In this document: positions 18,848 to 52,456 of the stretch, piece after piece
How positions within the stretch are numbered: position 1 is the first letter of the stretch
Layout of the letters: the number at the start of each line of letters is the position of its first letter
Source of the DNA: Peribacillus frigoritolerans
GTDB lineage: Bacteria > Bacillota > Bacilli > Bacillales > DSM-1321
Assembly (NCBI RefSeq): GCF_040250305.1
Contig: NZ_CP158190.1
Span: 3,318,001 to 3,382,000 of the forward strand
Length of the DNA: 64,000 bases
Direction: 5' to 3'
The notes under the pieces: generated by a model
Databases searched by the model: none
Seen by the model: only the letters and a program-made list of their open reading frames with translations
What the model was told of the DNA's origin: nothing
Program-made: the position numbers and the translations under genes

Positions 18848-18900
18848 AATATGCCTCCCTTACAAATTAATGATTCTCTTATTTTTTTGTCTTCTTCATT

Positions 18901-20049: not shown

Positions 20050-20074
20050 CTTGAATCCGCTTCCTTTTTTACGC

Positions 20075-20491
20075 TTATATTCCAGCTACATCTTCTTCTG
20101 TTTGTTGCTGTATTTTTTTAAATTCCTTTATATTCTCTTTACCATCTTTTAAGATTTTATCGATAAATGCATCGAGACTGAGTTCTCGGTGAAAAAATCC
20201 GCTCAACAACATAGGTAAGTTTGTTCCAGCTACTACCCGAATATTATCTTTATCTGAAGCAATCCTAGAACACACATTAAATGGAGTTCCACCCGCTAAG
20301 TCTGTAAAACATACCACTCCTGCTCCTGTTTCTACATTGTCAATAGCTTTAAATAAAACTTGCTCTAAAATTGTTACATCTTCTTCAAATGGAATAACCT
20401 CTACTTGCTTTATTTCTCCAGCAATTAACTGGACCGACTCAAGCATTCCAGTTGGAAAAGAACCATGTCCTGTTAGCACAATTCCAATCAT
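20075..20491 (-). CDS. agaF: PTS EIIA, mannose family (AgaF type)
   Basis: A 138-residue EIIA-Man domain. The phospho-accepting histidine is His9 in LTGHGSFPTGM, and DLAGGTPFN lies in the middle of the fold. It passes phosphate from HPr to the IIB subunit. It is a free single-domain protein in an operon with IIB, IIC and IID of the same PTS family, matching the split AgaF/AgaV/AgaW/AgaE layout. Confidence 0.92.
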   Translation of the reverse strand: MIGIVLTGHGSFPTGMLESVQLIAGEIKQVEVIPFEEDVTILEQVLFKAIDNVETGAGVVCFTDLAGGTPFNVCSRIASDKDNIRVVAGTNLPMLLSGFFHRELSLDAFIDKILKDGKENIKEFKKIQQQTEEDVAGI

Positions 20492-20537
20492 TCATTTCAT
20501 CCTCTCTTATCAGTATTTTTTGTGTAAAATATTAAAA

Positions 20538-21353
20538 TTATAAGATATTAAAGTAAGATCCTATTAAACCGACTACAACAGTTAGGCCAATCAGCATTAA
20601 AGGAGAACGCCCCTTTTTAAGTAACCAGTACATTAGTAACGTATATAATAACGGCAGCATCGCTGGCATGATCATATCTAATACATCTGATTGGATATTT
20701 AATTTTGCGTCTCCGGATTTCCAAACATATTTAACGTTAAATGCAACATAAGTGGCAATTAATCCGCCAACTACTGTCAAACCTACAATTGATGCAGCGC
20801 GGGAAACGAATTTTGTACCATCTTTTAATTTCACAATTGCTTTAACACCTGTTTTATATCCATAGTTCATTAATCCGAACCGGACACCAAAGTGAATAAT
20901 ATTAAATGAGATTAGAAATACAATCGGTCCAAGGGGGTTCCCTTCTACCGCTAATGAAGCACCTATTCCCGCTGTAATCGGTAATAAAGTAAGATAAAAC
21001 AATGCATCCCCTATACCACCAAGTGGACCCATCATAGCAACACGAATACCACGAATAGCCTCTCTATCTTCTTTCTTTTGTTCCATTGCTAAAATCACAC
21101 CCATAATAAATGTTACTAAAAACGGATGCGTATTAAAGAATTCCATATGGTCTTTCATTGATTTACTTAAATCTTTTTTATTTTTATGGATATGCCTTAG
21201 ACCTGGTAAAATGGAGTAAAGCCATCCGGCCGATTGCATACGTTCATAGTTAAAAGATGCTTGTAATAGTAAAGAACGCCATACTAGGATTCGTAATTGC
21301 TTCTGTTGTAAATCCGGAGCTTCAGTTTCATCTTCATAGTGATTAGATGCCAT
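20538..21353 (-). CDS. agaE: PTS EIID, mannose family (AgaE type)
   Basis: The IID membrane subunit, 271 residues. The N-terminal segment (ILVWRSLLLQASFNYERMQSAGW) is the family signature. GPLGGIGDALFYLTLLPI and a hydrophobic C-terminus follow. With IIC it forms the sugar channel. ATG 21353 was chosen because GAGGAGG lies 7 nt upstream; this start overlaps the end of the IIC gene by 11 bp, implying translational coupling. The longer frame from 21443 would overlap IIC by 100 bp. Confidence 0.92.
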   Translation of the reverse strand: MASNHYEDETEAPDLQQKQLRILVWRSLLLQASFNYERMQSAGWLYSILPGLRHIHKNKKDLSKSMKDHMEFFNTHPFLVTFIMGVILAMEQKKEDREAIRGIRVAMMGPLGGIGDALFYLTLLPITAGIGASLAVEGNPLGPIVFLISFNIIHFGVRFGLMNYGYKTGVKAIVKLKDGTKFVSRAASIVGLTVVGGLIATYVAFNVKYVWKSGDAKLNIQSDVLDMIMPAMLPLLYTLLMYWLLKKGRSPLMLIGLTVVVGLIGSYFNIL

Positions 21354-22119
21354 CGGTGATTTCCTCCTCACTAGGCTGATATTTATCTGGACCTTGTTTT
21401 TCTTTGTTTTGGTAAAAATCATACAAGGCGATTGCCAAACCAATTAATGCGATTGCCAAAATTGGCATTTCTAAATAAGCTGCTGCGACAAATCCTATAA
21501 TAAAGAACATGATATATTCGACTTTCATCATAATTTTCAATAACATCGCAAATCCAATGGCTGGCATAATCCCTCCGGCTATGGACAATCCGCCAATAAT
21601 CCATTGTGGTACTGTTTCAACAAATCCTGATGCTTTTTCCGCTCCAAAGAAAATGGGTAAAAACGCTATAACTGCATAAAATGTAAACAGAATGAACAAG
21701 CCTAAATAATTTATTCGTTCAATCCCTTTATAATTTGCTTCTAGTGCATATTGATCGGCTTTGTGCATCATTGGTGCAAATAATGTGAAAAACAAGGTAA
21801 TTAACCCTTGTACTGCTACAGCAAACGGTATTGCCACCCCAACTGCAACTTTTGGGTCCTGACCAGCAATAATACCAAATGCTGTTCCAATCACTCCCCC
21901 AATAACAACGTTCGGTGGCTGTGCACCAGCAAGCGGCACCATACCCATCCATATTAACTCCAAAGTTCCTCCAACTATTAAACCAGTCTGAACGTCCCCT
22001 AAAATTAGACCAACTACAAGTCCCGTAACTACCGGACGGTGAATATGGGTTAATCCATTAAATAGATCGACACCGATAATCCCAGCCCATAAAGCAATTA
22101 ATAATGCTTCGACTAACAT
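21343..22119 (-). CDS. agaW: PTS EIIC, mannose/sorbose family (AgaW type)
   Basis: The IIC membrane subunit, 258 residues, with about eight hydrophobic segments. The conserved GGTLELIWMGMVPLAGAQPP (near residues 50-70) is typical of mannose-type IIC proteins. It forms the translocation channel for N-acetylgalactosamine with IID. It lies between the IIB gene (about 40 bp upstream) and the overlapping IID gene. Confidence 0.92.
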   Translation of the reverse strand: MLVEALLIALWAGIIGVDLFNGLTHIHRPVVTGLVVGLILGDVQTGLIVGGTLELIWMGMVPLAGAQPPNVVIGGVIGTAFGIIAGQDPKVAVGVAIPFAVAVQGLITLFFTLFAPMMHKADQYALEANYKGIERINYLGLFILFTFYAVIAFLPIFFGAEKASGFVETVPQWIIGGLSIAGGIMPAIGFAMLLKIMMKVEYIMFFIIGFVAAAYLEMPILAIALIGLAIALYDFYQNKEKQGPDKYQPSEEEITDGI

Positions 22120-22160
22120 AAGTTATCCCCCCCTAAAATTTACTTTAATCCGCTATTCTT

Positions 22161-22640
22161 TTAAAATAAATCTAATATATTTAGTCCCTTTTCGCTTGGT
22201 ACTCTTCTTAAATCTAACTTCACGCCTAGTTCTCCCAAACGTTTAAATGCAGCGATATCTTTTTCATCAACAGATACAGTAGAGGAAATCTGTTTTTTCC
22301 CTTCTTCATAATGCATATTTCCAATATTCAACTGCTCAATTTGCACTCCGCCTTCCTTTAGCGCCAATGCATCATGCACATCTTTTACAACTAAGAATAT
22401 TTTTTGACGAGAAGACGCTTTATGAATGACGTCAATCGTTTTTTGTAATGAAAAATAGCGTGATTGAATAACATCAGGCAATACCATATCCATTAAATTT
22501 TGTTGAATTTCATCTGTGGATACCTTGTCATTTGCAACGACAATTAAGTTTGCCCCCAGATGGTTGACCCATGTAACCCCCACTTGACCATGTATTAAAC
22601 GATTATCGATTCTGGTTAATAAAATATTTGGAGCTGACAT
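22161..22640 (-). CDS. agaV: PTS EIIB, mannose family (AgaV type)
   Basis: A 159-residue cytosolic IIB domain. The phosphorylated histidine is His17 in RIDNRLIHGQVGVTW. It takes phosphate from IIA and passes it to the incoming sugar. ATG 22640 was chosen because AAAGGAAG lies 6-7 nt upstream and the protein then starts just before the conserved LLTRIDNR. The longer frame to 22745 has no ribosome site. Confidence 0.92.
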   Translation of the reverse strand: MSAPNILLTRIDNRLIHGQVGVTWVNHLGANLIVVANDKVSTDEIQQNLMDMVLPDVIQSRYFSLQKTIDVIHKASSRQKIFLVVKDVHDALALKEGGVQIEQLNIGNMHYEEGKKQISSTVSVDEKDIAAFKRLGELGVKLDLRRVPSEKGLNILDLF

Positions 22641-23206
22641 AAAATTTCTTCCTTTCATAAATGAGATTTTACGACATTTTAAGATTTGAATTCCAATTGG
22701 CTTCAAAGTACGAATTCTAAGAGTTAAAGAAGAAAATTGCCTCAATACTTCCTGTTATAGAATCTACTAAACGCTCATCATTACCAATAATATCCCTTAA
22801 CAATTGAAAGCGTTTGCAATGCAAATGAAAAAAAGCAGTCAATGAACTCATGGAAATACTGGGTTGCAGACCCCGGATTCTGTAGATATATTTAATAAAA
22901 GGACGAGTGGCCATATACATTAATAAATTTCTTCACATCAAAATTATCTTTCATGATCCCTGAGCACACGCATGTTCAATCATTTTTCCTCGAGTAACTC
23001 AGGGATTTCACGGTAAGCCCCCTCGGCAGCTTCAACTTCGTTAAACTAAAGCAGGAGCGACAGGATTTGATTGAAGGCATTGAAACTTTCCTTCAATTAA
23101 TTGAGTGACAACCGCTTGATTCATTATTTATTGACCCAGTTGATGAATCACTTTTTTACCTCTAGTTCCTGTTTTCATTAAAAAACACGGAGCTTATATT
23201 GAATCC
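22641..23206. other. Long gap inside the aga operon
   Basis: This 566-bp gap splits the kinase/aldolase genes from the PTS genes. It holds a near-perfect cre box (22805-22818). Short protein-like stretches broken by stops also occur: on the minus strand EVEAAEGAYREIPELLEEK then stop (about 23035-22979). I see no intact gene. It may be a second promoter region and scar of a lost gene. Confidence 0.45.
22805..22818. promoter_or_regulatory. CcpA cre box before the PTS genes
   Basis: TGAAAGCGTTTGCA matches the cre consensus TGWAANCGNTNWCA at 13 of 14 positions. It lies 165 bp upstream of the IIB start, so carbon catabolite repression of the PTS half of the operon is likely. Confidence 0.65.
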
Positions 23207-40574: not shown

Positions 40575-40617
40575 TACTAAAAAACCCCCTTGTCCATATT
40601 GGGCAAGGGGGTTTTTT
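40575..40617. terminator. Strong bidirectional terminator
   Basis: AAAAAACCCCCTTG is paired with CAAGGGGGTTTTTT around a short loop. It lies between the converging efflux and gntR genes. Confidence 0.92.
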
Positions 40618-40658
40618 AATCTTTTGAGGACGGGTTTATTAATACATTTTATTTTTGC

Positions 40659-41384
40659 TCATGATAACCGCTCCAAATTGATTTTGAATGTATATCGATC
40701 TGCCCGGTAGACGGATGTGACAAGCCCAAGTGGTTGATTGGAATCCAGGGTACTTCTTCGTTCAATCAGCAATACAGGGGCACCTTCGACTACCTCGAGC
40801 ATTTCCGCCTCTTTTTTTTGAGCGATGGCGGCTTCAATTACCTGGTCATGCTGAATTTTTAAGCCAAACGTTTTTTCTACATAGTCATGAATGGAAGTTA
40901 CGGCTATTTCTTCCGTTAGATCCAGGGCAAGATCTTTTGAGATAAATAGCCTTTCATATGCCATCGGCAATCGATCAGCAAGCCTAACACGTTTAAGCTC
41001 GAAAATAGGAGCACCTGCTTCAACCTCAAGCTTTGCAGCAAGATCATTATTTGCCTTGACCTCCGTAAAACTGATAACTCGTGTACTTGGTTCAAGTCCT
41101 CTTGAAATCATATCCTTCGAAAAGCTTGTTAAGCCTAGCATGGGTCGCTCCAATTTTTGTTGGGCAACGAATGTTCCTTTTCCGCGCTGCCTATATAAAT
41201 AACCGCCATTCACTAGGTTAGAAATGGCCTGTCTCACCGTCATCCTGCTTATTCCATATTTTTCAGTGTATTCTTTTTCTGAAGGAATCACCTCTCCTGG
41301 CACCAATTCAAGATTTTGTATCGCTCCTTTAATCTCCTCTTCAAGTTGATGATAAATGGGACTGGGAGAATTCTTTTGGATCAT
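40659..41384 (-). CDS. GntR/HutC family regulator (amino-sugar type)
   Basis: A 241-residue protein with the same layout as the regulator at 34128. A winged helix-turn-helix (YTEKYGISRMTVRQAISNLVNGG) lies in the first 75 residues, and a UTRA ligand domain (about 90-240) with LTSFSKDMISRG follows. HutC-type proteins of this branch sense GlcNAc-6-P or glucosamine-6-P. It follows the RpiR gene of the cell-wall sugar operon by 115 bp in the same direction, so it may add a second signal to that operon. Target sites were not identified. Confidence 0.9.
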   Translation of the reverse strand: MIQKNSPSPIYHQLEEEIKGAIQNLELVPGEVIPSEKEYTEKYGISRMTVRQAISNLVNGGYLYRQRGKGTFVAQQKLERPMLGLTSFSKDMISRGLEPSTRVISFTEVKANNDLAAKLEVEAGAPIFELKRVRLADRLPMAYERLFISKDLALDLTEEIAVTSIHDYVEKTFGLKIQHDQVIEAAIAQKKEAEMLEVVEGAPVLLIERRSTLDSNQPLGLVTSVYRADRYTFKINLERLS

Positions 41385-41499: not shown

Positions 41500-42366
41500 C
41501 TAAGTATCCAAATTCCTTTTTGTGAATTTCAACACCGATTCCCTTGAACGTTCAATTTCATTTTTATTTTCATTATAGAATTTAGAAACATATGCATAGA
41601 AAATGATGCTGACCGTTAGAAATTGTGCAAAAAGCGAACTTGTTGCAGCACTTCGGAATTTAGCCTCCGGTGCACGTACATGATTTAGGGACATATCAAC
41701 TTTTTTAGTTAGGCCATTGTTCCCCAATCGCGATAAGCCTATTGTTTTTATGCCATATGCTTTAGCAATATCAACGAGTTCCAGGACTTCTTCAGTTTCG
41801 CCACTATTGGAAATACAGAAAAAAACGGTATTCTTTGATGATGCAGCCAGTGCAGTTGCCGTAATATGCGGGTCTTGATTGGCACTTACAATCTTTCCTA
41901 ACCGTAACCATTTCTGTGTAATATCTTCAGCAACCAGCCATGATGCCCCTAAACCATAGACATAAATTACATCTGCACTCCTCATGGTTTCAATGATATT
42001 GTCAAGAACGGCCTCATCCAAATAATGTGCAGTTTCTTGTATAGCTTGGACAGAGTTGGACACTATTTTATTTTTAATGGACGCTATTGTTTCGTTAGGC
42101 TCAATGTCATGGAACCCTTTTTTCTCAGGTTGGGAAATCAGGGATGATAGGGATACCTTCAGTTCTGAAAAGCTGTTAACTTTTATAGAATGACAGAACC
42201 TCGTTACGGCCGAACTGCTGGCATTGGCATGATCAGCTAATTCATGTATCGTCATTCTTATAATGTCGTTTGGATTTTCTAAAATATATTGTGCAATTTT
42301 CCGTTCTGATTTAGGCAACTGGTTCAATAAGCTTTCAATTCTCAATATAATATTTTCGACGTGCAT
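41500..42366 (-). CDS. RpiR family regulator with SIS domain (MurR-like)
   Basis: A 288-residue regulator. An N-terminal RpiR helix-turn-helix (about 1-77, with MTIHELADHANASSSAVTRFCHSI) is joined to a sugar-phosphate-binding SIS domain (about 120-260, with VYGLGASWLVAEDI and FCISNSGETEEVLELV). MurR proteins of this type respond to MurNAc-6-P. It is the last gene of the run murQ-PTS-GH4-PTS-mupG-kinase. AAGGAGAG precedes the ATG. The likely operator is the palindrome upstream of murQ. Confidence 0.9.
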   Translation of the reverse strand: MHVENIILRIESLLNQLPKSERKIAQYILENPNDIIRMTIHELADHANASSSAVTRFCHSIKVNSFSELKVSLSSLISQPEKKGFHDIEPNETIASIKNKIVSNSVQAIQETAHYLDEAVLDNIIETMRSADVIYVYGLGASWLVAEDITQKWLRLGKIVSANQDPHITATALAASSKNTVFFCISNSGETEEVLELVDIAKAYGIKTIGLSRLGNNGLTKKVDMSLNHVRAPEAKFRSAATSSLFAQFLTVSIIFYAYVSKFYNENKNEIERSRESVLKFTKRNLDT

Positions 42367-42394
42367 ATGATTTACTCTCCTTGATCTATACTTA

Positions 42395-43288
42395 CTATAA
42401 ATGCTTCATTGCTATGTAATAACAACCCAAGGTAGCTGATACGTCTTCTAAAACAAATTTCACATTTGGGTTTTCAAGTTTAATATGATTGATGAAAGAG
42501 CTTTGCACCAATGGTATATTTGTCAAGATGCTACCTTTTATTGCAATTGTAACATTCTTACTTAACTTTAACTTCTTGATAACCTCAAGCGTTTGTTTTG
42601 AAAGGTGGTACCCAGCCTGATTTAGAATATTTTGCGAGAAACCATCGCCCTTAACCGCATGTTGAACAATCAGGGGAACAAATGAGGCAATCTCGGATTT
42701 CGTGGCAGAATAAATGAATTTCTTCAGTTCCATAACACTGTTGTAGCCAAGTTTTTGAAGTATTGACTGTGATAGCTGGCTATAGATATACCCCTCATCC
42801 TCTTCTTTCGTCATTTTTATAAAAGCCTGCATGGCGATCCAATAGCCACTTCCTTCATCCCCAAGGATGTGTCCCCAGCCACCTGCCGATTTCTCGATTC
42901 CTTTATGGATGCCGATACTTACAGATCCAGTTCCGGATATGGTCAAAATGCCATCATTTCCTTTAAGCAAAGCAGCATGAGCGATAATTGCATCATTTAC
43001 AATGGTGAACGGGGCCTTAAATGCCCTGCTTAATGCACTTTTTATGCCCTGCGGATTTTCAACTCCTCCATACCCGGCTAAGCCTAAGCAAATGTAATGG
43101 CAGCTTCCATTGTTAATGGGCATTACGCATTCTTCAATTGCCTGAATAATGTTAGCGATGGCTTTTTTTTCATTAATAAGCAGGTTTCCAAACCCCGCTA
43201 TGCCATCACTAATTTTATTTCCATCTAAATCATAAGCCACTGCTTCAGTTTTAGTGCCTCCGCCGTCAACTCCGATAATATAATTCAT
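42395..43288 (-). CDS. BadF/BcrA-type ATPase, probable MurNAc/GlcNAc kinase
   Basis: A 297-residue actin-fold kinase. The phosphate motif GVDGGGTKTEAVAYD begins at residue 5, and GTGSVSIG and the GWGHILGDEGSGYWIA segment follow. This is the N-acetylglucosamine-kinase-like family that includes MurK, which phosphorylates MurNAc and GlcNAc at O-6. Between mupG and murR in a recycling operon, it would capture the free GlcNAc left after MupG cuts a phosphorylated disaccharide. AGGAGA precedes the ATG. Confidence 0.88.
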   Translation of the reverse strand: MNYIIGVDGGGTKTEAVAYDLDGNKISDGIAGFGNLLINEKKAIANIIQAIEECVMPINNGSCHYICLGLAGYGGVENPQGIKSALSRAFKAPFTIVNDAIIAHAALLKGNDGILTISGTGSVSIGIHKGIEKSAGGWGHILGDEGSGYWIAMQAFIKMTKEEDEGYIYSQLSQSILQKLGYNSVMELKKFIYSATKSEIASFVPLIVQHAVKGDGFSQNILNQAGYHLSKQTLEVIKKLKLSKNVTIAIKGSILTNIPLVQSSFINHIKLENPNVKFVLEDVSATLGCYYIAMKHL

Positions 43289-43339
43289 ATTATTCTCCTA
43301 TTCAGTAAAAAAGGAAGGAATATCACCTTCCTTCCCTGA

Positions 43340-44425
43340 TCAATTAATATTGAATTGGAATTTCCCCCATGGTTCCAAATAATCGAGAAGAAAAATTTCC
43401 TCTTCTGTTATTCGGCCAACTACATTCGTTTTCCCCGAATTCTTCATTTCCTTTAATGCAATCTGCAATTCCCCTTTATATTGTCCATAGAGCTCATTTT
43501 CAATTAAAATATCACCGCGCCGAATATCAGGCGTATATGTTGGTTTAAATTCTTCGCTCTTATATTTCACGCGTGATTGAGTCGAGCGAATTAAATAATC
43601 GGAAACATCTCCACGGTAAAAATGGAATTCTTCCAATACTATTTTTTTCTCTAATGCTGTAATGGTTTCGTGAAGGTTAACATTAAATGTTAACAGACCG
43701 CTGTTTAACAGGCTAAGCTGCTTCAATTCATCTTCAGATGCGTAAGCATTTGCAATTATTACATCATCAATCAACCCTGTAGCATACAAATGTTTCGCTT
43801 GTGTTGTAATGGGCAATTCCCGGTGCATTTCTAAAGTACATAATCCTTCCGTTACAGGCCAAGGACCGTAAGTTGCTGCATGTGAGCTGATGAAAGCTGC
43901 CGTGCGGATATTATGCTTTTTGAATGACTCACAGCATTTTATAAAATGAGGATAGCTCAATCCTGCATAGCGATGCGGATAGAAGTTATGCGATCCAACT
44001 AAATTCTCTTTATTTGGTTTGTAATCCATAATATTATCTAAATATTTTGTTGCATTGCTCATGTTTATTTCAATTTTTAGATCATATGAATTATGTGTCA
44101 TAATCGACTCTTCGTTACCTGTAAAACCCATGTCCAGCCTGATTCCATATGCACCTAATTCTGCAAAAAACGATAAGTCATTATAAGAAATGCCTAGCGA
44201 ACCGAATACTCGGGGAGCAATATCGACCATCACTTCCATATTCAATTGATTGGCATAAACTATCGTTTCTTTAAATTCTTTTAATATCTTCTCTTTGTCA
44301 CCTTCGACAGAAAGCAAGCAAGTAAAGATCTTTTTGAATCCATATTTGTGTGCAAGTGCAATGTATTCCATGTCTTTTTCAACGGTTGAATGCTCTGGAT
44401 AGATAGATATACCAAGTTTACCCAT
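43340..44425 (-). CDS. mupG: MupG-type 6-phospho-N-acetylmuramidase (DUF871)
   Basis: A 361-residue DUF871 protein with a TIM-barrel N-terminal domain (LGISIYPEHSTVEKDMEYIALAH, ending about 240) and a cyclophilin-like C-terminal domain (about 250-361). MupG enzymes are cytosolic exo-hydrolases that split MurNAc-6-phosphate-beta-1,4-GlcNAc into MurNAc-6-P and GlcNAc. The context fits: PTS genes before it, the BadF kinase after it, and murQ in the same run. AGAGGTG precedes the ATG. Confidence 0.9.
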   Translation of the reverse strand: MGKLGISIYPEHSTVEKDMEYIALAHKYGFKKIFTCLLSVEGDKEKILKEFKETIVYANQLNMEVMVDIAPRVFGSLGISYNDLSFFAELGAYGIRLDMGFTGNEESIMTHNSYDLKIEINMSNATKYLDNIMDYKPNKENLVGSHNFYPHRYAGLSYPHFIKCCESFKKHNIRTAAFISSHAATYGPWPVTEGLCTLEMHRELPITTQAKHLYATGLIDDVIIANAYASEDELKQLSLLNSGLLTFNVNLHETITALEKKIVLEEFHFYRGDVSDYLIRSTQSRVKYKSEEFKPTYTPDIRRGDILIENELYGQYKGELQIALKEMKNSGKTNVVGRITEEEIFLLDYLEPWGKFQFNIN

Positions 44426-44440
44426 TATTTAATCACCTCT

Positions 44441-44770
44441 TTACTGTTGTGGGGCTAGCTTTTTTACAATGCGGATCATATGTTCAATTAGTTTTTGTTC
44501 GCTCATTGCCGTCATCAAGTGATCCTGAGCATGAATCATCAATAAAGTTTTCTCACTTGGAACTCCATTCAATTCTGCTTGAATTAGCTTGGTTTGTGTC
44601 TTATGTGCCAAGTTCAATTCTTCTTGGCCCTGTTTAATTAGTTCCTCTGCACTCTCAAAATTAAATTCTTCCGCTTCTTTCAGTGCTTCGAATGCTAATC
44701 CCCTTGCATTTCCGCTATGTGATATTATTTCAAAAATCTCCATTTCATTATTGTTCATTTCAGTTGACAT
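44441..44770 (-). CDS. PTS EIIA, lactose/cellobiose family
   Basis: A 109-residue three-helix EIIA. The phosphorylated histidine lies in MIHAQDHLMTAM (His80 by count), the hallmark of LacF/ChbA-type proteins. It relays phosphate from HPr to the separate IIB protein of the same operon. It is spaced 16 bp from mupG and about 70 bp from the GH4 gene. AGGAGTG precedes the ATG. Confidence 0.93.
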   Translation of the reverse strand: MSTEMNNNEMEIFEIISHSGNARGLAFEALKEAEEFNFESAEELIKQGQEELNLAHKTQTKLIQAELNGVPSEKTLLMIHAQDHLMTAMSEQKLIEHMIRIVKKLAPQQ

Positions 44771-44842
44771 ATCATTACACTCCTATTTTAAGTTAGATTA
44801 TGAAGGTTCATTGGTTTACTGTAATCCAAATTAATACACCAT

Positions 44843-46189
44843 TCACTTGATGTTCTGTACGGCACTTTCACTGAAGAATCGCGGTAAGTATTCTTTATGC
44901 GCTTTTAAAAGTTTTTGTAAAACAATTTCCGCCAGGTCATCACTTGGAATAAGCGGGTTAATCGTTAAAGCCAATAATGCTTTATCATAAGAACCTGTAA
45001 CGGCTGCCTCTGCACCAATTCTTTCAAATGATTTAATTTGTTGGATTAAGCCATGCACTTGTATGGGTAATTTACCCATCGCCAAAGGAATTGGTCCATT
45101 CTTCGTGACGATACAGCTTACTTCTACTGCTGAATCATAATCAATATCAGTAAGCGATCCTTTGTTTTGTACATTTAGCACTTGAATGTCTTTTTTATCA
45201 TTATAAATAGAAGAAATGACGTTACACGCTGCATCGCTATAGTAAGCTCCACCGCGCTGTTCTAATTGTGGAGGCTTGATGTCAAGGGTTTCATCCTTGT
45301 ATAGGTCAAACAAACCTTCTTCTAATCTTTTCACAATTTCAGCTCGAGTTTCCCCTGATTTGAATGCTTCCAATTCTTCTTCTAAAATCGTTTTCGTTTT
45401 GTAATAATAACGATGGTACGGGCAAGGCACCACTCCTAAGGATTTCAAAAATCTTCTGTTCCAGGCCAATGGGGCAATATTCTTCATCGTCAGCTGAATC
45501 TCAGGATTGCCAAGCATTTCAAGCACTTTATCTGTTACTTCTTGATCATCAACGAACACTTGCATCCCGAATACCATGTGGTTTAACCCGGCGAAATCTA
45601 TGTGCACTCTCTTCATATCCACACCAAGCATGCTAGAAATAGACATATGCATATTAAATGGAACATTGCATACCCCAATGACTTTTTTATGCTTACTGTA
45701 GCGGAGAAGGGCTTCCGTTACCATCCCCGCTGGGTTTGTGAAGTTAATTAACCAAGCATCAGGGCAGAGCTCCTGCATTTCTTCTGCAATTTCCAGAATA
45801 ATGGGTATAGTTCGTAATGCTTTGGACAATCCTCCTGCACCGTTTGTTTCTTGACCAATAAATCCTAATTCCAACGGGATGCGCTCGTCCTTGATTCGTG
45901 CATCAAGTAATCCCACTCTCATTTGCGTCGTGACAAAATCAGCATTTTGCAAGGCTTGCCGGCGGTCTAACGTTAGATGTATTTCCATTGGAAGTCCTGC
46001 TTTTTCAACCATCCGTTTTGCTAAGGTTCCTACAATTTCCAGTTTTTCTTTTCCTGCCTCAATATCCACTAACCACAGTTCCCTAATTGGCAACTCATCA
46101 TATCGTTTAATAAAACCTTCTATTAATTCTGGTGTATAACTAGAGCCTCCACCAATTGTGGCAATCTTCAACCCTTTTTTCATTTCCAT
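44843..46189 (-). CDS. GH4 6-phospho-beta-glycosidase (NAD/Mn dependent)
   Basis: A 448-residue family 4 glycosidase. The N-terminal NAD motif is IATIGGGSSYTPELIEGF, and NFTNPAG follows. The metal-binding cysteine (GVCNVPF) and histidine (LNHMVF) are visible. It cleaves 6-phospho-disaccharides after PTS uptake by an oxidation-elimination mechanism. In this operon the substrate is probably a phosphorylated amino-sugar disaccharide rather than cellobiose-6-P, but that is inferred from context. It lies between the PTS IIA gene and a small membrane protein gene. Confidence 0.92.
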   Translation of the reverse strand: MEMKKGLKIATIGGGSSYTPELIEGFIKRYDELPIRELWLVDIEAGKEKLEIVGTLAKRMVEKAGLPMEIHLTLDRRQALQNADFVTTQMRVGLLDARIKDERIPLELGFIGQETNGAGGLSKALRTIPIILEIAEEMQELCPDAWLINFTNPAGMVTEALLRYSKHKKVIGVCNVPFNMHMSISSMLGVDMKRVHIDFAGLNHMVFGMQVFVDDQEVTDKVLEMLGNPEIQLTMKNIAPLAWNRRFLKSLGVVPCPYHRYYYKTKTILEEELEAFKSGETRAEIVKRLEEGLFDLYKDETLDIKPPQLEQRGGAYYSDAACNVISSIYNDKKDIQVLNVQNKGSLTDIDYDSAVEVSCIVTKNGPIPLAMGKLPIQVHGLIQQIKSFERIGAEAAVTGSYDKALLALTINPLIPSDDLAEIVLQKLLKAHKEYLPRFFSESAVQNIK

Positions 46190-46224
46190 TCCCCAAACAC
46201 CTCATTGTTAGCTAATCTGAATTT

Positions 46225-46509
46225 TTATTTATATATTATTGCATAGCAAACCAGTGCGCTCACCGCTAATAAAGACAAGAATAATAGTGATGCATGTTTC
46301 TTGTTTTTAAACTTACCTTCAACAAAACAAACAACCATCGTCAATCCTGCGCTTATGGCAAAGGTATTTCCCAAGTACAGTGATAATTGTTTATTAATCT
46401 CAAAGGCATCCATTAATCCGTTAAAGATAAAATTAAAAACAAGAATGAAGCTAAAAAATAGAAAGGCACTTTTGTAACTAAAAAAGTGAATTCTGGATGT
46501 TGAATTCAT
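46225..46509 (-). CDS. Small membrane protein in the recycling operon
   Basis: A 94-residue protein with three likely hydrophobic segments (AFLFFSFILVFNFIF; LGNTFAISAGLTMVVCF; LLFLSLLAVSALVCYAI) and short charged loops. I recognise no family. ATG 46509 has a strong GGGGGAAAGG site, so it is probably translated. It sits between the PTS IIC and GH4 genes. A role as a PTS or cell-wall accessory factor can only be guessed. Confidence 0.65.
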   Translation of the reverse strand: MNSTSRIHFFSYKSAFLFFSFILVFNFIFNGLMDAFEINKQLSLYLGNTFAISAGLTMVVCFVEGKFKNKKHASLLFLSLLAVSALVCYAIIYK

Positions 46510-46579
46510 ATCCTTTCCCCCTCTCAATTTATAAAAGGAGTTTGGAGCATTTAGTCCCAAACTCCCTTTTAGGTATTCC

Positions 46580-47869
46580 TTATAAAGCGATATTTTTATT
46601 ATCCGTTGTTTCTACCACGTTTTCCTGCGCTAAAAGCTTTTTATCGTACATCTTAAAGAATGGCAGATAAATAAGGACCGAAATTGTTAAATTCACCATC
46701 ACGAGAACAACGGCTCTCCAATCACCGCCTGTTGAAAGGTAGGCACCTATTGGAGCGGGCAATGTCCAGGGAACCATTACATATGTCGGGTTCACAAGTC
46801 CAATGGACGTTGCTATATATGCAAGTGTTGCACCAATTAGCGGTGTAATGATAAATGGAATAATAAGTACCGGGTTTAGTACAATTGGCATCCCGAAGAT
46901 AACAGGTTCATTGATGTTAAAAATGCTTGGCACAATTGTTGCTTTCCCCATTGCTTTACTATAGGTAGATTTTGCCGTTAAGAGCATGGCTATTACTAAA
47001 CCCAATGTTGCACCAGACCCACCAATCCAAATAAACCATTGGAAGAATGTTTCAGGAGCTATGTGGGGAATTGCCTTTCCAGCTGCAACCGCTGCCGAGT
47101 TATTCCCCAAATATACTTCCCATACCGGACGAGCTACGGCACCTACTACTGATACGCCATGAATACCAAATGACCAAAAGAATGTAATCAAAAATACTGG
47201 AATTAATACACCTGGCAAAGTATCGCCTGCACTGATGAGTGGTGCAACCGCTTTATCAACAAGTGAATGTAAATCAACAGCAAAAACGACTGTAATTAAA
47301 GTCATAACAAGCAGTACAATTGAAACTGGTATTAATGCTTCAAATGAACGGGCTACTGAGGTTGGAACAGAATCCGGCATTTTAATTGTGATATTTTTTG
47401 TCTTACAAAGCCGTAAAATTTCGACAGCAAAAATGGATACAAGCATTCCTACAAAAAGACCATGGCCTCCGAGATTTGTCATTGGCAAAACAAACCCCAC
47501 ATCATCCATCATCTTTACACCAATTGTGAACAAGAAGGCTGCTAATGATAGTAAACCTCCAGATAGCGGGTCAAGTTTATAGCTTTGAGATAAACTGTAG
47601 CCTATACCAAAAGTAATATATAGCGTCATGATAAACATCGTTAATCGATATGGTATTAAAATTTCAGCGATATGTTTTGCAGACCATTCACCTAATGCAG
47701 TATCTGCTGCAACGGGCGGAAATGCAATGATCAAGAATAAACTTCCAAAGATGATGAAAGGTAACGCAGAAACCACACCATCCCGAATCGCGCGTAAATG
47801 TTTTTGCTCAGACAATTTAGCCATAGGTGTTGAAAGATTATTTTCTAAAAAAGCTACAAACTTGTCCAT
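46580..47869 (-). CDS. PTS EIIC, lactose/cellobiose family (CelB/ChbC type)
   Basis: A 429-residue membrane protein with about ten helices. It opens with MDKFVAFLENNLSTPMAKLSEQKHLRAIRDG and has the conserved FNINEPVIFGMPIVLNPVLIIPFI near residue 325. It transports a disaccharide that is phosphorylated on entry by the separate IIB/IIA proteins. Recognised MurNAc uptake uses a glucose-family PTS (MurP), so a Lac-family transporter here points to a MurNAc-containing disaccharide. AAGGGG precedes the ATG. Confidence 0.92.
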   Translation of the reverse strand: MDKFVAFLENNLSTPMAKLSEQKHLRAIRDGVVSALPFIIFGSLFLIIAFPPVAADTALGEWSAKHIAEILIPYRLTMFIMTLYITFGIGYSLSQSYKLDPLSGGLLSLAAFLFTIGVKMMDDVGFVLPMTNLGGHGLFVGMLVSIFAVEILRLCKTKNITIKMPDSVPTSVARSFEALIPVSIVLLVMTLITVVFAVDLHSLVDKAVAPLISAGDTLPGVLIPVFLITFFWSFGIHGVSVVGAVARPVWEVYLGNNSAAVAAGKAIPHIAPETFFQWFIWIGGSGATLGLVIAMLLTAKSTYSKAMGKATIVPSIFNINEPVIFGMPIVLNPVLIIPFIITPLIGATLAYIATSIGLVNPTYVMVPWTLPAPIGAYLSTGGDWRAVVLVMVNLTISVLIYLPFFKMYDKKLLAQENVVETTDNKNIAL

Positions 47870-47918
47870 TCGTGTTTTCCCCTTTTACGTTTAGTGAAAA
47901 GAAATAGTAATTAGTTTA

Positions 47919-48224
47919 TTATTTTGCTAGTTCCGTTACCAGTTTTAATAGTTTAGGTCCGCCAAGAGGGCTGTAAGCTTGGGCTGGAATGGCTTCACAT
48001 GGGACGCCCGCTTCATCTGCCGATGCCTTAAAGCCATCGAAACGATGTTTGACTTGCGGAGCTACCATTGCAACATCCCAGCCATTTCGTACTTCTGCAT
48101 CAAATTCTTGAGTGCCGACTGCCAATACTTCTATGGTTACACCCTGTTTTTCCCCTTCCTTTTTTAAAGCGCTTACAACGATTGCACTAGACATTCCACC
48201 TGAGCATACGAATAATACTTTCAT
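47919..48224 (-). CDS. PTS EIIB, lactose/cellobiose family
   Basis: A 101-residue IIB with the phospho-cysteine at Cys7 in VLFVCSGGMSSAIV. It passes phosphate from IIA to the sugar bound by IIC. ATG 48224 fits GGAGG at the correct distance; the ATG at 48239 lies within the ribosome-site region. It follows murQ by about 40 bp and precedes the IIC gene by about 50 bp. Confidence 0.93.
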   Translation of the reverse strand: MKVLFVCSGGMSSAIVVSALKKEGEKQGVTIEVLAVGTQEFDAEVRNGWDVAMVAPQVKHRFDGFKASADEAGVPCEAIPAQAYSPLGGPKLLKLVTELAK

Positions 48225-48265
48225 TCTTTGTTCCTCCAATTTTTTTATTTTTTTTATTAAAAGCG

Positions 48266-49150
48266 TTAAATCGTTTTTCTTATGAATCCTTGTGCTTTCA
48301 CTAAACGATTTGAGGCTTCTTCATATGATACATTCGTTAAAATCATGACAATTGCAATTTTAGGCTGGGCATGTGCCTTTTCTAAGTATTCATCTGCAAT
48401 TTCATAGCTACAGTCAGTAGCATCCATGATAATACGTTTTGCACGTTCAACCAGCTTTTCATTAGTTAACTGTAAATCTACCATTAAATTACCATAAACT
48501 TTTCCAACTCCAACCATTGAGGCGGTGGAAAGCATGTTGCATACTAACTTTTGCGATGTTCCAGCTTTTAAACGTGTAGAACCAGTCAGGACTTCAGGCC
48601 CGTTTACAACTTCAATCGCAACTTTTGCAATCTTACCTATCTCAGAACCTTTGTTACAGCTTATCGACACAGTTCCTGCACCAACATGATTGGCATATTC
48701 CAATCCAGCAATAACATATGGAGTGCGTCCACTAGCTGCAATGCCCACTACGACGTCCCTGTTTGTTAATTCGATTTTCTTCAAATCCTCAGGACCTAAT
48801 TCAAAACTGTCTTCAGCACCTTCAACCGCCTTAATGAAAGCCTTTTCCCCACCAGCTATAAGACCCACTACTTCACTCGGATCGGTATTGAATGTTGGGG
48901 GACATTCTACTGCATCCAATAAACCTATGCGCCCGCTTGTTCCTGCACCCATGTAAATTAATCTGCCGTTTTTATTCATGGCTTCAACGATCATCTCCAC
49001 GGCTTTAGAAATTTGCGGAAGTTCTTTTTTTACACAATGGGCAACTTTAATGTCTTCTTCGTTCATCACCTCTAAAAATTCCAGTGTTCCCATTTCATCT
49101 AAACTCATGGTCTTTTCATTACGACGCTCTGTCGTTAAATGCTCAAGCAT
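48266..49150 (-). CDS. murQ: N-acetylmuramic acid 6-phosphate etherase
   Basis: A 294-residue SIS-fold lyase. It begins MLEHLTTERRNEKTMSLDEM and carries the MurQ signature IYMGAGTSGRIGLLDAVECPP (with the catalytic Glu) and VGIAASGRTPYVIAGLEYA. It splits the lactyl ether of MurNAc-6-P to give GlcNAc-6-P and D-lactate. ATG 49150 is 7 nt from AGGAT and starts the standard N-terminus. It is the first gene of the recycling operon. A 21-bp palindrome lies 100 bp upstream. Confidence 0.95.
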   Translation of the reverse strand: MLEHLTTERRNEKTMSLDEMGTLEFLEVMNEEDIKVAHCVKKELPQISKAVEMIVEAMNKNGRLIYMGAGTSGRIGLLDAVECPPTFNTDPSEVVGLIAGGEKAFIKAVEGAEDSFELGPEDLKKIELTNRDVVVGIAASGRTPYVIAGLEYANHVGAGTVSISCNKGSEIGKIAKVAIEVVNGPEVLTGSTRLKAGTSQKLVCNMLSTASMVGVGKVYGNLMVDLQLTNEKLVERAKRIIMDATDCSYEIADEYLEKAHAQPKIAIVMILTNVSYEEASNRLVKAQGFIRKTI

Positions 49151-49251
49151 ACATATCATCCTTTTTTATTTCAGTGGTGAAAGTGGTGAAACTTTATTTG
49201 CTATAGAGAATATATCACTATTAAAAATTAATTTCAATATTGTATATACAT

Positions 49252-49272
49252 TTTTAAAATTTAATTTTAAAA
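49252..49272. promoter_or_regulatory. 21-bp palindrome upstream of murQ (MurR/RpiR operator candidate)
   Basis: TTTTAAAATT (49252-49261), one T, then AATTTTAAAA (49263-49272), a perfect inverted repeat. It is AT-rich like several RpiR-family operators. It lies between the divergent murQ and GHL10 genes. Confidence 0.4.
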
Positions 49273-49290
49273 TAAAAGTAAGATACCTAA

Positions 49291-49310
49291 ATTGATTGAT
49301 TGATTGATTG
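49291..49310. repeat. ATTG microsatellite, five units
   Basis: Five uninterrupted ATTG units. They lie between murQ and the GHL10 gene, so a change in unit number could alter promoter spacing. Confidence 0.9.
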
Positions 49311-49439
49311 AATGTTAGCTTTCTACTAAAAATAGAAAATGTAAACCGAGTAGCCATTTAGTGAACCAAACCTACGATTCTTTTTATTGTTAGATCTTAT
49401 CTAACTATTCATAGATGACAAATTCATATATTCATTATT

Positions 49440-49453
49440 TGTTAACGCTTACA
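49440..49453 (+). promoter_or_regulatory. cre box before the GHL10 gene
   Basis: TGTTAACGCTTACA matches the CcpA consensus TGWAANCGNTNWCA at 13 of 14 positions, 44 bp before the gene start. Catabolite repression of the secreted enzyme is likely. Confidence 0.6.
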
Positions 49454-49496
49454 AATAATTAAATATAAATATTAGTAATGAAATGAGGTTGTACTA

Positions 49497-51110
49497 TTGA
49501 TGAATGAAAGAATTACTAAGAAAAAATTGGGTTCATTGGCTCTAGCCGCTTTGGTGGGGGGATCACTTCTCCTTCCAGCTGATTTGAAAGCAAATGCAGA
49601 ATCTGGGACAATTCCTCAAACAACGACTTATGTAAAACAGGAACTTCGCGCAACTTGGATTGCAAGTGTGTTAAATATTGACTGGCCGTCCAAACCTGGT
49701 TTATCCATATCAGCACAGAAAGAAGAATTCATAAAATATTTGGATGAACAAAAAGCGATGGGAATGAATGCTGTCGTTATGCAAATTAAACCCACTGCGG
49801 ATGCTTTTTATCCTTCTGAATACGGTCTTTGGTCAAAATATTTAACAGGAGTCCAAGGAAAAGATCCCGGGTATGACCCTCTTGCATTCATGGTAGAAGC
49901 AGCACATGAACGTAATATGGAATTTCATGCGTGGTTTAATCCTTACCGCATTACTATGCCTTTAGGTAAAACCGCTGAAATATCGGATATTGATAATCTT
50001 CCAGAATCTCACCCTGCCAGAAAGCACCCGGATTGGGTCATACCATATGGACAACAATTGTACTTTGATCCAGGCATTCCTGGCGTACAACGGTTTGTGA
50101 TTGATGGAATAATGGAAGTTGTTAAGAATTATGATATCGATGCAGTCCATATGGACGATTATTTCTATCCTTACAAGATTGCAGGAGTACCTTTCCCAGA
50201 TGAAATTTCCTATCAAAAATATGGAGCAGATAGATTTACAAATGTTGAAGATTGGCGCAGGGATAATGTAAATAACCTTGTTAAGAATATAAATGAAGAA
50301 ATCAAGGCAGAAAAATCATATGTGAAGTTTGGTATAAGTCCATTTGGAGTTTGGCGCAACAAAGCAGTTGATCCCACAGGATCTGACACTGCCGCAGGAC
50401 AAACGAATTATGATGATTTATATGCAGATACCCGAACGTGGATCAATAATGGATATATTGATTATATTGCCCCTCAATTATATTGGAATATAGGATTGCC
50501 AGTAGCTGACTATGCCAAACTTCTAGATTGGTGGACAAAAGAAGTCGAAGGTAAAAATGTTCAACTCTATATTGGACAAGGAGACTATAAAATTAATACA
50601 GAGTCCAACGGTGTGCAAAACTGGTTCAATCCTGAAGAAATGCCAAACCAGTTAAAACTGAATCGAACATATAAGGAATTTGATGGAAGCATGCATTTCA
50701 GTGCCAAAGATTTACGGAAAAACCCCCTTGGGATAGCAGATCGGTTAAGCGAGGATATTTATAAGCATCCCGCATTGGTCCCAGCCATGCCTTGGATTGA
50801 TGATCAAGCACCAAAGGCCCCAAAGGTGATCAAGGCCACACAATCAGGAGATGGGATACAATTTGAAATTCACGATCAAAAGAAATCAGATGCATCTTAT
50901 TATGCCATTTATCGTTTTGATGGGAAGAAAAAAGGAAACATTGAAGATTCAACGAACTTACTTGCCACAGTGCATAAAGAAAATACAAGTCAATTGTTTA
51001 ATGATGGCAGTGTAGAAAAAGGCAAGACTTACACATATGTTGTGACAGCATTGGACCGTACCCACAATGAAAGTAAACAAACTAGGCAGATTTATATAAA
51101 AGTAAAATGA
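49497..51110 (+). CDS. Secreted GHL10-family glycoside hydrolase-like protein
   Basis: A 537-residue exported protein with a signal peptide (KLGSLALAALVGGSLLLPADLKANA), a GHL10/DUF187 TIM-barrel domain (about 45-400, with LRATWIASVLNIDWPS, MQIKPTADAFYPSEYG and HMDDYFYPY) and a C-terminal FN3-like domain (about 440-537). The YngK family to which it is similar is poorly characterised, with a proposed role on cell-wall glycans. Start is TTG 49497 or ATG 49500 behind GAGGT. It is divergent from murQ and followed by anmK, so it may release fragments from the wall that the operon recycles. Confidence 0.88.
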   Translation: MMNERITKKKLGSLALAALVGGSLLLPADLKANAESGTIPQTTTYVKQELRATWIASVLNIDWPSKPGLSISAQKEEFIKYLDEQKAMGMNAVVMQIKPTADAFYPSEYGLWSKYLTGVQGKDPGYDPLAFMVEAAHERNMEFHAWFNPYRITMPLGKTAEISDIDNLPESHPARKHPDWVIPYGQQLYFDPGIPGVQRFVIDGIMEVVKNYDIDAVHMDDYFYPYKIAGVPFPDEISYQKYGADRFTNVEDWRRDNVNNLVKNINEEIKAEKSYVKFGISPFGVWRNKAVDPTGSDTAAGQTNYDDLYADTRTWINNGYIDYIAPQLYWNIGLPVADYAKLLDWWTKEVEGKNVQLYIGQGDYKINTESNGVQNWFNPEEMPNQLKLNRTYKEFDGSMHFSAKDLRKNPLGIADRLSEDIYKHPALVPAMPWIDDQAPKAPKVIKATQSGDGIQFEIHDQKKSDASYYAIYRFDGKKKGNIEDSTNLLATVHKENTSQLFNDGSVEKGKTYTYVVTALDRTHNESKQTRQIYIKVK

Positions 51111-51227
51111 TCTTCAAGAAATAGCTTTATAGCTTAAGTGTTATATCTCAGTGAACAATGGCAGCATACACTGCTGCATATGATGCTAAGTCAGGATTAT
51201 AAAAGAATTGAAGTAGGTGGAATGACG

Positions 51228-52400
51228 ATGTACATAGTTGGATTAATGTCCGGAACATCACTGGATGGAATTGATGCTGCACTTGTTCGGGTGAATAATA
51301 GTGGACTCGAGACTGAAATGGAAATGATTGAGTTCATGACATGCCCTTTTCCAAAAGATATTGAAAAAGAAATTATGCAGTCTTTATCTGCAGAAACATC
51401 CAATGTGCAGTTAATATGCAGTTTGAATTTTAAATTAGGAAAATTATTTGCCAATGCAGTAAAGGAAGTTTGTCATAAAGCTGGATTTCCCATAAATAAA
51501 CTGGATCTTATTGGATCCCATGGACAAACCATTTACCACCAGCCTTTAAAAGAACAAAATTATATACCCTCCACTTTGCAAATTGGGGAAGCTGCAGTAA
51601 TTGCTCACGATACAAACACACTTGTAATCTCTGATTTTCGTACGATGGACATGGCTGCTGGTGGACAAGGAGCTCCTCTTGTTCCTTTTACCGAATACAT
51701 TCTTTATAGAAGTGAAACGAAGGGAAGATTACTTCAAAACATAGGGGGCATTGGAAATGTAACCGTCTTACCCAAGCAGGCATCTCTGAATGACATGTAT
51801 GCCTTTGATACAGGGCCTGGGAATATGATCATTGATGAAGTATGCCGCCAATTGTTCAATATTAGCTATGACGAAGGTGGTAACATAGCTAAACAAGGAC
51901 AAATTAATGACGAACTTTTATCTTATTGTATCAGCCATCCTTATATTATGAGCCCTCCGCCAAAATCAACTGGCAGGGAATTATTTGGCAAGCAATATGT
52001 AGTAAAACTATTAAAGATGTTTGAATCACTTCCCAGTCATGATATTTTAGCTACAGTAACGATGTTTACAGCAAAGTCGATTGTGGAGAACTATCGAAAA
52101 TTCATCTTTCCAAAAACCAATATTGAAGAAGTGATAATTGGCGGCGGAGGCAGCTATAACAAAACGTTATTAAATATGATGCAATCACTGCTTGGAAATT
52201 CTATTCAAGTTTTGACTCAAGAAGAGTTGGGGTACTCTTCTGAAGCGAAGGAAGCAGTGGCCTTTGCATTACTTGCAAATGAGACTTTCCATGGTAATAC
52301 GAGTAACGTCCCCAAGGCTACCGGTGCTGACTTCGATGTCATCCTAGGAAGCATGACCTTCCCTTCTTCATATCTGAAGGAGCATAAAAATACTTTTTAA
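51228..52400 (+). CDS. anmK: 1,6-Anhydro-N-acetylmuramic acid kinase
   Basis: A 390-residue actin-fold kinase. It begins [19 protein letters not shown], then has [31 protein letters not shown] and [10 protein letters not shown], all strong AnmK marks. It converts 1,6-anhydro-MurNAc (from lytic transglycosylases) into MurNAc-6-P, the substrate of MurQ. ATG 51228 is 7 nt from AGGTGG; the longer frame to 51138 has no ribosome site. It is paired with the GHL10 gene and ends at a bidirectional terminator. Confidence 0.94.
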
Positions 52401-52404
52401 CCAT

Positions 52405-52456
52405 TTAAAAAAGTGGAAGGCACATCGATATTTGATGTGCCTTCCACTCTTTTTTG
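52405..52456. terminator. Bidirectional terminator
   Basis: AAGTGGAAGGCACATC (52411-52426) pairs with 52434-52449, T/A-rich on both sides. It serves the converging anmK and aldehyde dehydrogenase genes. Confidence 0.93.

Follow-up and report, generated by a model that had tools for sequence, protein, structure and literature searches.

Peptidoglycan recycling in Escherichia coli is understood to run through the disaccharide N-acetylglucosaminyl-1,6-anhydro-N-acetylmuramic acid (GlcNAc-anhMurNAc) and the AmpG, NagZ, AnmK and MurQ proteins, and the disaccharide enters by a permease, is not phosphorylated on entry and is cut by NagZ. In Staphylococcus aureus, the report on mupG-murQ-murP-murR (Kluj 2018, PMC6262408) describes import by the phosphotransferase system (PTS), a 6-phosphoglycosidase of glycoside hydrolase family 170 (GH170), MurQ and an RpiR-type regulator, and leaves open an enzyme IIA (EIIA) and a sugar kinase. 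The chb operon of Lacticaseibacillus paracasei (PMC12791066) likewise pairs a cellobiose-type PTS with a GH170 enzyme; it serves the use of diacetylchitobiose, as shown genetically, and includes a DUF3284 protein and no sugar kinase. Further background was taken from PMC12288456, PMC6403190, PMC10628242 and PMC13393411. Here we analysed a locus of Peribacillus frigoritolerans (genome of 5.6 Mb, one contig) at positions 41500 to 52400 of a stretch of 64,000 nucleotides (contig NZ_CP158190.1, positions 3,318,001 to 3,382,000), called the window below. It shares with S. aureus PTS import, a GH170 6-phosphoglycosidase, MurQ and an RpiR-type regulator, and with E. coli AnmK, MurQ and a proposed GlcNAc-anhMurNAc currency, which, unlike in E. 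coli, would be phosphorylated on entry. On balance, this locus probably encodes a second, anhydro-capable system for peptidoglycan disaccharides, parallel to MurP, which would import GlcNAc-(anh)MurNAc and convert both halves to GlcNAc 6-phosphate (GlcNAc-6P).

An earlier note on this sequence had placed here murQ, mupG, a BadF kinase, an RpiR regulator, anmK and a secreted GHL10 protein around a lactose-family PTS and a GH4 enzyme. All of these genes were found in their places, with family-level support from Pfam and NCBIfam:

41500..42366, minus strand: RpiR/MurR-type regulator (HTH_6 and SIS domains; Pfam, NCBIfam)
42395..43288, minus strand: BadF-family sugar kinase, proposed MurNAc/GlcNAc kinase (Pfam; structure 8zo3, E 1.3e-35)
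43340..44425, minus strand: GH170 6-phosphoglycosidase of the MupG family, lactose-PTS-linked clade (Pfam MupG_N and MupG_C; structure 1x7f, 452 bits)
44441..44770, minus strand: PTS EIIA, lactose/cellobiose family (Pfam PF02255)
44843..46189, minus strand: GH4 NAD-dependent 6-phospho-beta-glycosidase with GGGS and CNVP motifs (Pfam; structures 1s6y/5c3m, ~690 bits)
46225..46509, minus strand: small unannotated membrane protein of 94 amino acids between EIIC and GH4 (no Pfam family)
46580..47869, minus strand: PTS EIIC of the lactose/cellobiose family, in a clade of its own with Gln277 (PF02378; lacE; tree)
47919..48224, minus strand: PTS EIIB, lactose/cellobiose family, ATG at 48224 (Pfam PF02302)
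48266..49150, minus strand: MurQ, MurNAc-6-phosphate etherase, start at 49150 or 49159 (TIGR00274, 406 bits, cut-off 302)
49500 (or 49497)..51110, plus strand: secreted GHL10 enzyme, proposed Cwp19-type lytic transglycosylase (PF02638; structure 5oq2)
51222..52400, plus strand: AnmK, anhydro-MurNAc kinase, start at 51222 (NCBIfam, 625 bits, cut-off 435)

The starts of EIIB, murQ, GHL10 and AnmK were refined, that of murQ being judged from the sequence. The nine genes of the minus strand run from 49150 down to 41500 in the order murQ, EIIB, EIIC, small membrane protein, GH4, EIIA, GH170 (mupG family), BadF and RpiR, and the gaps below ~75 bases suggest that they form one operon. Divergently from murQ, the plus strand carries the GHL10-anmK pair as a separate unit. 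The nearest named loci are of the Peribacillus simplex/frigoritolerans type, and the gene order recurs in nine Peribacillus-type loci (L008-L014, L023 and L045); P. loiseleuriae (L015) has its anmK within the operon. A chance cluster was ruled out by this recurring synteny. EIIA, EIIB and EIIC all belong to the lactose/cellobiose family and there is no glucose-family EIIBC in the island, which bears out the earlier description of a cell-wall amino-sugar island with a cellobiose-type PTS at its core and sets it apart from the MurP systems. The S. aureus set has the glucose-family MurP instead, and its GH170 enzyme is of a different clade.

The island is a second system beside the MurP set of the same genome. 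Two murQ genes exceed the family cut-off, and the other one opens a canonical cluster of murQ, murR, glucose-family MurP, GH170, NagZ (its N-terminus signal-like) and NamZ. The GH170 proteins of this cluster and of the island share ~30% identity. A count over the whole genome gave seven matches to lactose-type EIIA and three GH4 genes, with two further EIIABC-GH4 operons lying elsewhere. Because of this canonical cluster and these operons, the island should be needed neither for the recycling of MurNAc-GlcNAc nor for the use of cellobiose. The only AnmK match in the genome is that of the island. All three GH3 proteins have a signal-like or hydrophobic segment at the start, so that the candidates for intracellular release of anhMurNAc are GH170 or GH4.

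We used a sample of 200 genomes of the class (Bacilli), evenly drawn and including our own. GH170 was present in 56 of them, with 65 matches, of which 60 places were fetched, two were our own and three were omitted (G178, G103:C59 and G199:C3); 59 loci were scored, L084 being excluded for its short frame. A gene counted as a neighbour if it scored above 40 bits against a profile built from the loci and lay no more than 8 kb away (6 kb in the case of the EIIC and GH4 trees), and a locus with MurQ or AnmK among its neighbours is called PG-linked (peptidoglycan-linked). The scored loci comprised 35 linked to MurP, 22 linked to a lactose-type PTS (lac-linked) and two linked to neither. MurQ was found in all 35 MurP-linked loci and AnmK, BadF, GH4 and GHL10 in none, in contrast to the island, which has GH4, BadF and AnmK. 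The 22 lac-linked loci had AnmK in 8, BadF in 11, GH4 in 9 and MurQ in 6 cases; the difference in AnmK gives a Fisher p of 2e-4, with relatedness ignored. All eight surveyed lac-linked loci with MurQ or AnmK carried AnmK, and all eight carried BadF.

We also examined 40 named loci, a set that is biased by its selection for resemblance to the GH170 of the window and that overlaps with the survey (L014 and L077 are one contig, as are L036 and L073). They include 25 PG-linked loci, 11 lac-linked loci without MurQ or AnmK and four without a PTS match nearby. Among the 25, AnmK was present in 25, MurQ in 22, BadF in 21, GHL10 in 14 and GH4 in 12. AnmK is thus no oddity here, as it accompanies every PG-linked lactose-PTS/GH170 locus (8/8 surveyed, 25/25 named) and does so as one lineage. 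In the tree of GH170 proteins, a branch of 1.89 with support of 100/100 sets off the 64 rows of the lac-linked clade, which contains the window GH170; the MurP-linked rows are all outside it (36/36), and one lac-linked row, L100, stands among the MurP-type rows. The deepest branch of the clade, as drawn, is formed by L095 and L096, which have a lactose-type PTS, GH170 and a DUF3284 protein.

AnmK exceeded its cut-off in 41 of the 200 genomes (45 matches, four of them below the cut-off and dropped; 10 loci in hand and 31 fetched), which does not agree with the earlier opinion that it is unexpected in Gram-positives. Ten of these loci belong to the PTS/GH170 type: a PTS gene is visible in nine, and the tenth is a 5-kb contig with AnmK and GH170 alone. 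None of the ten has NagZ. The 31 others (L141-L171) share the endpoints AnmK, BadF and MurQ with the island, having MurQ in 24, BadF in 16 and NagZ in 12 cases, but they differ in that all 12 NagZ proteins start without a signal-like sequence and that no lactose-type PTS, GH170 or GH4 match was found within 8 kb. Where transporter candidates were tested, in six of the 31, all ten proteins were binding proteins or permeases of ATP-binding cassette (ABC) type. Their AnmK is also of another lineage: in the AnmK tree, the 34 PTS-linked AnmKs together with L084, a short contig on which AnmK adjoins GH170, are split from all 31 others with support of 100/99. Since the PTS-type AnmK loci are without NagZ and the others without GH170 and GH4, the latter two enzymes appear to hold the place of the signal-less NagZ. 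The eight NagZ proteins of MurP-type loci have signal-like starts, as judged by eye. The window AnmK itself matches PF03702 with 340 bits.

The transporter is also distinct. The window EIIC was assigned to lacE with 417 bits (cut-off 236) and missed the cellobiose equivalog cut-off of 434 (NCBIfam). In the EIIC tree, from which the distant row L041_19779 was dropped and L070 omitted as it overlaps L069, all PG-linked EIICs (33/33) fall in a clade of 46 rows (100/99) with an inner clade of 43 rows (97/91), and this clade excludes E. coli ChbC, the structure 3qnq and the five other EIICs of our genome that were compared. The EIICs of the chb-like loci L095 and L096 are also outside it. The residues aligned to 3qnq His250, Glu334, Trp245 and Trp382 are retained, of which His250 and Glu334 are functional residues of ChbC. 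Position 277 is Gln in 33/33 PG-linked EIICs and Asp or Glu in seven references; of 24 GH170 loci with neither MurQ nor AnmK in the neighbourhood, 9 have Gln at this site, 13 Asp and 2 Asn. Assuming that position 277 lies in the pocket, we would expect such a loss of an acid near a carboxylated sugar. An EIIC of the same clade with Gln277 was seen beside GH170 without MurQ or AnmK nearby in L036/L073 (one contig), L083 and L086.

A small membrane protein is encoded within 260 bases 3′ of EIIC in 29 of the 43 clade members (22 of type A and 7 of type B) and in none of 23 other EIICs, among which E. coli ChbC was entered as having no small protein without a scan. Neither the small protein nor its counterpart from Enterococcus and Carnobacterium matched a Pfam family over the cut-off, and the two types failed to align as one family (hhalign probability 1.3%). 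Thus two unrelated-looking types occupy the same place after EIIC, one in Bacillaceae and Listeria and the other in Enterococcus and Carnobacterium.

The GHL10 protein has a signal-like N-terminus (judged by eye), and its closest relative is Clostridioides difficile Cwp19 (5oq2, E 2.4e-128). In the report on Cwp19 (PMC6016235), the protein is described as a lytic transglycosylase with an exported GHL10 catalytic domain and CWB2 wall-binding repeats, whose products are GlcNAc-anhMurNAc-peptide and, where the terminal N-acetylmuramic acid (NAM) has no peptide, reducing NAM ends. The window protein resembles it in predicted role and differs in having GHL10 as its only Pfam domain and in its gene lying beside a recycling operon. 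We propose that it is a Cwp19-type lytic transglycosylase, and the two predicted types of product ends would match the two kinases, AnmK and BadF. E. coli DigH, which we take to be a GHL10 protein, is described as acting on peptide-free glycans. GHL10 genes stand beside PG-linked loci in Peribacillus, Listeria, Enterococcus and Fonticella. Lysis of the spore cortex by SleB is described as another source of anhydro ends, and the genome has six Hydrolase_2 matches.

Regarding the glycosidases, the island GH170 keeps the family-wide invariant residues (e.g. D68, R96, D98, H146, N147, E199, R271 and D273), and one of its loops reads H-R-Y, compared to R-P-E in the MurP type. The same site varies in other lac-linked members and is R-R-F and H-A-Y in the DUF3284-linked ones. 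The GH4 protein has both Pfam domains and the motifs GGGS at position 13 and CNVP at position 174, both with a role in GH4 enzymes. GH4 enzymes are described as handling 6-phospho-hexopyranosides by oxidation and elimination via a 3-keto form, starting at C3, and thus need a free O3 on the glycon, while O3 of MurNAc carries the lactyl ether. Because C3 oxidation starts the chemistry, a 3-O-lactyl glycon (MurNAc6P) should be inert to GH4, and GH4 is therefore expected to act on non-reducing-end GlcNAc6P or glucosamine 6-phosphate (GlcN6P). Cleavage of MurNAc6P-GlcNAc by GH4, which the earlier note had suggested, was set aside on these grounds. In the GH4 tree, 18 of 20 PG-linked GH4s are outside a nine-row group (100/98) formed by 1s6y, ChbF and the two other GH4s of the genome. 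The best solved relative of BadF, 8zo3, is named 'N-acetylmuramic acid/N-acetylglucosamine kinase', and BadF is below the NagK equivalog cut-off (108 vs 370 bits).

Gene content, synteny, clade structure and co-occurrence were computed, and substrates and reactions are all inferred from homology and gene context. The secreted GHL10 enzyme would cut wall glycan to GlcNAc-anhMurNAc and, by hydrolysis of peptide-free strands, to GlcNAc-MurNAc, with peptides taken off by other amidases. The lactose/cellobiose-family PTS would import both disaccharides and phosphorylate C6 of the non-reducing GlcNAc. GH170 and GH4 would cleave GlcNAc6P-(anh)MurNAc, GH4 possibly in its N-deacetylated (GlcN6P) form. 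AnmK would then convert anhMurNAc, and the BadF kinase MurNAc, to MurNAc-6P, and MurQ would split MurNAc-6P into GlcNAc-6P and D-lactate, so that both halves end as GlcNAc-6P. If MurNAc-GlcNAc were also imported, the BadF kinase could capture free GlcNAc. Control would be exerted by the RpiR regulator, by CcpA through its catabolite-responsive element (cre) and possibly by the NagR-like GntR protein. The capture of both halves of a disaccharide, as proposed in the earlier note, fits these predicted functions, and import of GlcNAc-(anh)MurNAc is the simplest reading that uses every enzyme. Whether all of this amounts to a Gram-positive phosphorylating route for GlcNAc-1,6-anhydro-MurNAc, with a dedicated PTS clade and its small-protein partner importing the GHL10 product, and GH170 and GH4 replacing NagZ to feed AnmK and MurQ, we regard as close to an even question, leaning slightly towards no. 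No description of a lactose-type PTS tied to AnmK or MurQ was noticed in searches of open-licence PMC.

The substrate given in the earlier note was MurNAc-GlcNAc, which we do not favour, as the genome already has a MurP/MupG set, although this route may operate, alone or besides the other orientation. If it were the only substrate, GH170 would split MurNAc6P-GlcNAc, BadF would phosphorylate GlcNAc and MurQ would finish the route, AnmK and GH4 having side functions. For S. aureus MupG, the sole biochemically characterised GH170, exactly this reaction is reported (PMC6262408); BadF would fill the GlcNAc step left open there, and MurQ is in the operon. However, AnmK, for which such a route has no use, is the steadiest partner (25/25 named and 8/8 surveyed loci, one contig being shared) and of matched lineage, GH4 should from its chemistry be inactive on a glycon with a blocked O3, and the R-P-E of the MurP type is replaced by H-R-Y in the island GH170. 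We consider this route unlikely. Slightly better placed, though still improbable, is the use of both orientations, with GH170 acting on MurNAc6P-GlcNAc, GH4 on GlcNAc6P- or GlcN6P-(anh)MurNAc and BadF on any free sugar. It would suit a locus that combines two glycosidases with two kinases, and the MurNAc/GlcNAc name of the nearest solved BadF relative, but a single EIIC would need unusual breadth, and 13 of the 25 named loci, e.g. in Enterococcus and Listeria, are without a GH4 match nearby, so that in them GH170 itself would need to release anhMurNAc.

An ordinary operon for chitobiose or cellobiose, next to which murQ and anmK lie by chance, would agree with the ~690 bits between the GH4 and solved 6-phospho-beta-glucosidases and with the L. 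paracasei case, in which GH170 (ChbE) and a cellobiose-type PTS serve diacetylchitobiose (PMC12791066). Yet the gene set recurs across several bacterial families, 33/33 PG-linked EIICs are outside the ChbC and 3qnq clades and 18/20 PG-linked GH4s outside the ChbF/1s6y group, and the genome holds two other EIIABC-GH4 operons. Gene content and trees thus do not point to the plain cellobiose or chitobiose set that the earlier note named as its counter-case, and we regard it as very unlikely. Even less credible is the use of cellobiosan, an anhydro-disaccharide of burnt cellulose, with the AnmK-like protein as a levoglucosan kinase. The best solved match of the window AnmK is indeed levoglucosan kinase (258 bits, vs 225 for the best entry named AnmK), and a cellobiose-type PTS with GH4 would be expected to suit Glc6P-levoglucosan, but MurQ, GH170 and the GHL10 enzyme adjoin and the AnmK equivalog cut-off is passed.

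Returning to GlcNAc-(anh)MurNAc import, several observations weigh against it. Besides the reaction of MupG and the closest solved matches of AnmK and GH4 just given, no assayed enzyme or transporter of this clade was noticed in the literature. In the whole GH4 tree the context labels are unclustered (10 changes, shuffled mean 9.8). E. coli ChbF, also a GH4, is described as requiring a deacetylated glycon (PMC12791066), and because of this the island GH4 may serve the N-deacetylated form; no ChbG-like gene was found in the island (Pfam, NCBIfam), the rest of the genome not having been searched for ChbG. The MurQ tree mixes the systems (6 changes), opposing co-inheritance of the whole set, and as MurQ is unsplit while AnmK splits, EIIC, GH170 and AnmK seem to form the stable core, to which MurQ would have been added on more than one occasion. 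The EIIC clade extends beyond the loci that carry AnmK, because Gln277 also occurs in the nine loci without MurQ or AnmK, and 14 of the 22 surveyed lac-linked GH170 loci have neither gene nearby. Finally, among PG-linked loci MurQ is absent nearby from 3/25 named and 2/8 surveyed, GH4 is absent from 13/25 and 2/8, and GHL10 adjoins 14/25 and 1/8, the latter being L077 on the same contig as the named L014.

For the control of the locus, the following elements and the neighbouring regulator gene were recorded:

40578..40618, no strand assigned: terminator-like stem, a 19-pair palindrome, beyond the GntR gene (stem search)
40659..41384, minus strand: GntR-family regulator resembling NagR/YvoA, located downstream of the operon (YvoA structures 2wv0/4u0v, E 7e-59)
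49209..49237, minus strand: promoter-like site TTGAAA-17-TATATT, 5′ of murQ in a Peribacillus-conserved block (consensus match only)
49434..49459, no strand assigned: 26-bp palindrome within the divergent promoter region that matches the cre (CcpA) consensus perfectly (alignment)
52412..52448, plus strand: terminator-like stem 3′ of anmK (stem search)

The 26-bp cre palindrome has the same sequence in all 10 Peribacillus-type sequences aligned. Promoter-like sites were not enriched (45 vs 40.7 in shuffled sequence), and no RNA family reached its gathering threshold between 38000 and 54000. The GntR gene is retained in Peribacillus loci, and its NagR-like product is possibly part of the operon control. 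A stem-loop with a T-run lies between the GH170 and BadF genes on the minus strand (43311-43337), possibly an attenuator or a processing site. In the Clostridiaceae loci L020, L021 and L022, a regulator of ~890 residues occupies the expected place of RpiR; in L020 and L022, which were scanned with Pfam, it carries Sigma54-activation and PRD domains. Elsewhere in the window, a separate sugar cluster (14918-22745) encodes a NagA-like deacetylase (18901-20049), PTS subunits resembling the mannose family and a GH31-like secreted protein, the latter two judged by eye.

Both components left open in S. aureus, an EIIA and a sugar kinase, occur together in the island. If our interpretation is correct, it would give the lactose-PTS-linked GH170 clade a function and would partly account for the occurrence of AnmK in about a fifth of the sampled genomes (41/200). 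It would also provide a complete Gram-positive loop for the recycling of the anhydro form, from wall cleavage to GlcNAc-6P, a form otherwise better known from Gram-negative bacteria. Which disaccharide Gram-positives recycle would thereby become a directly testable question.

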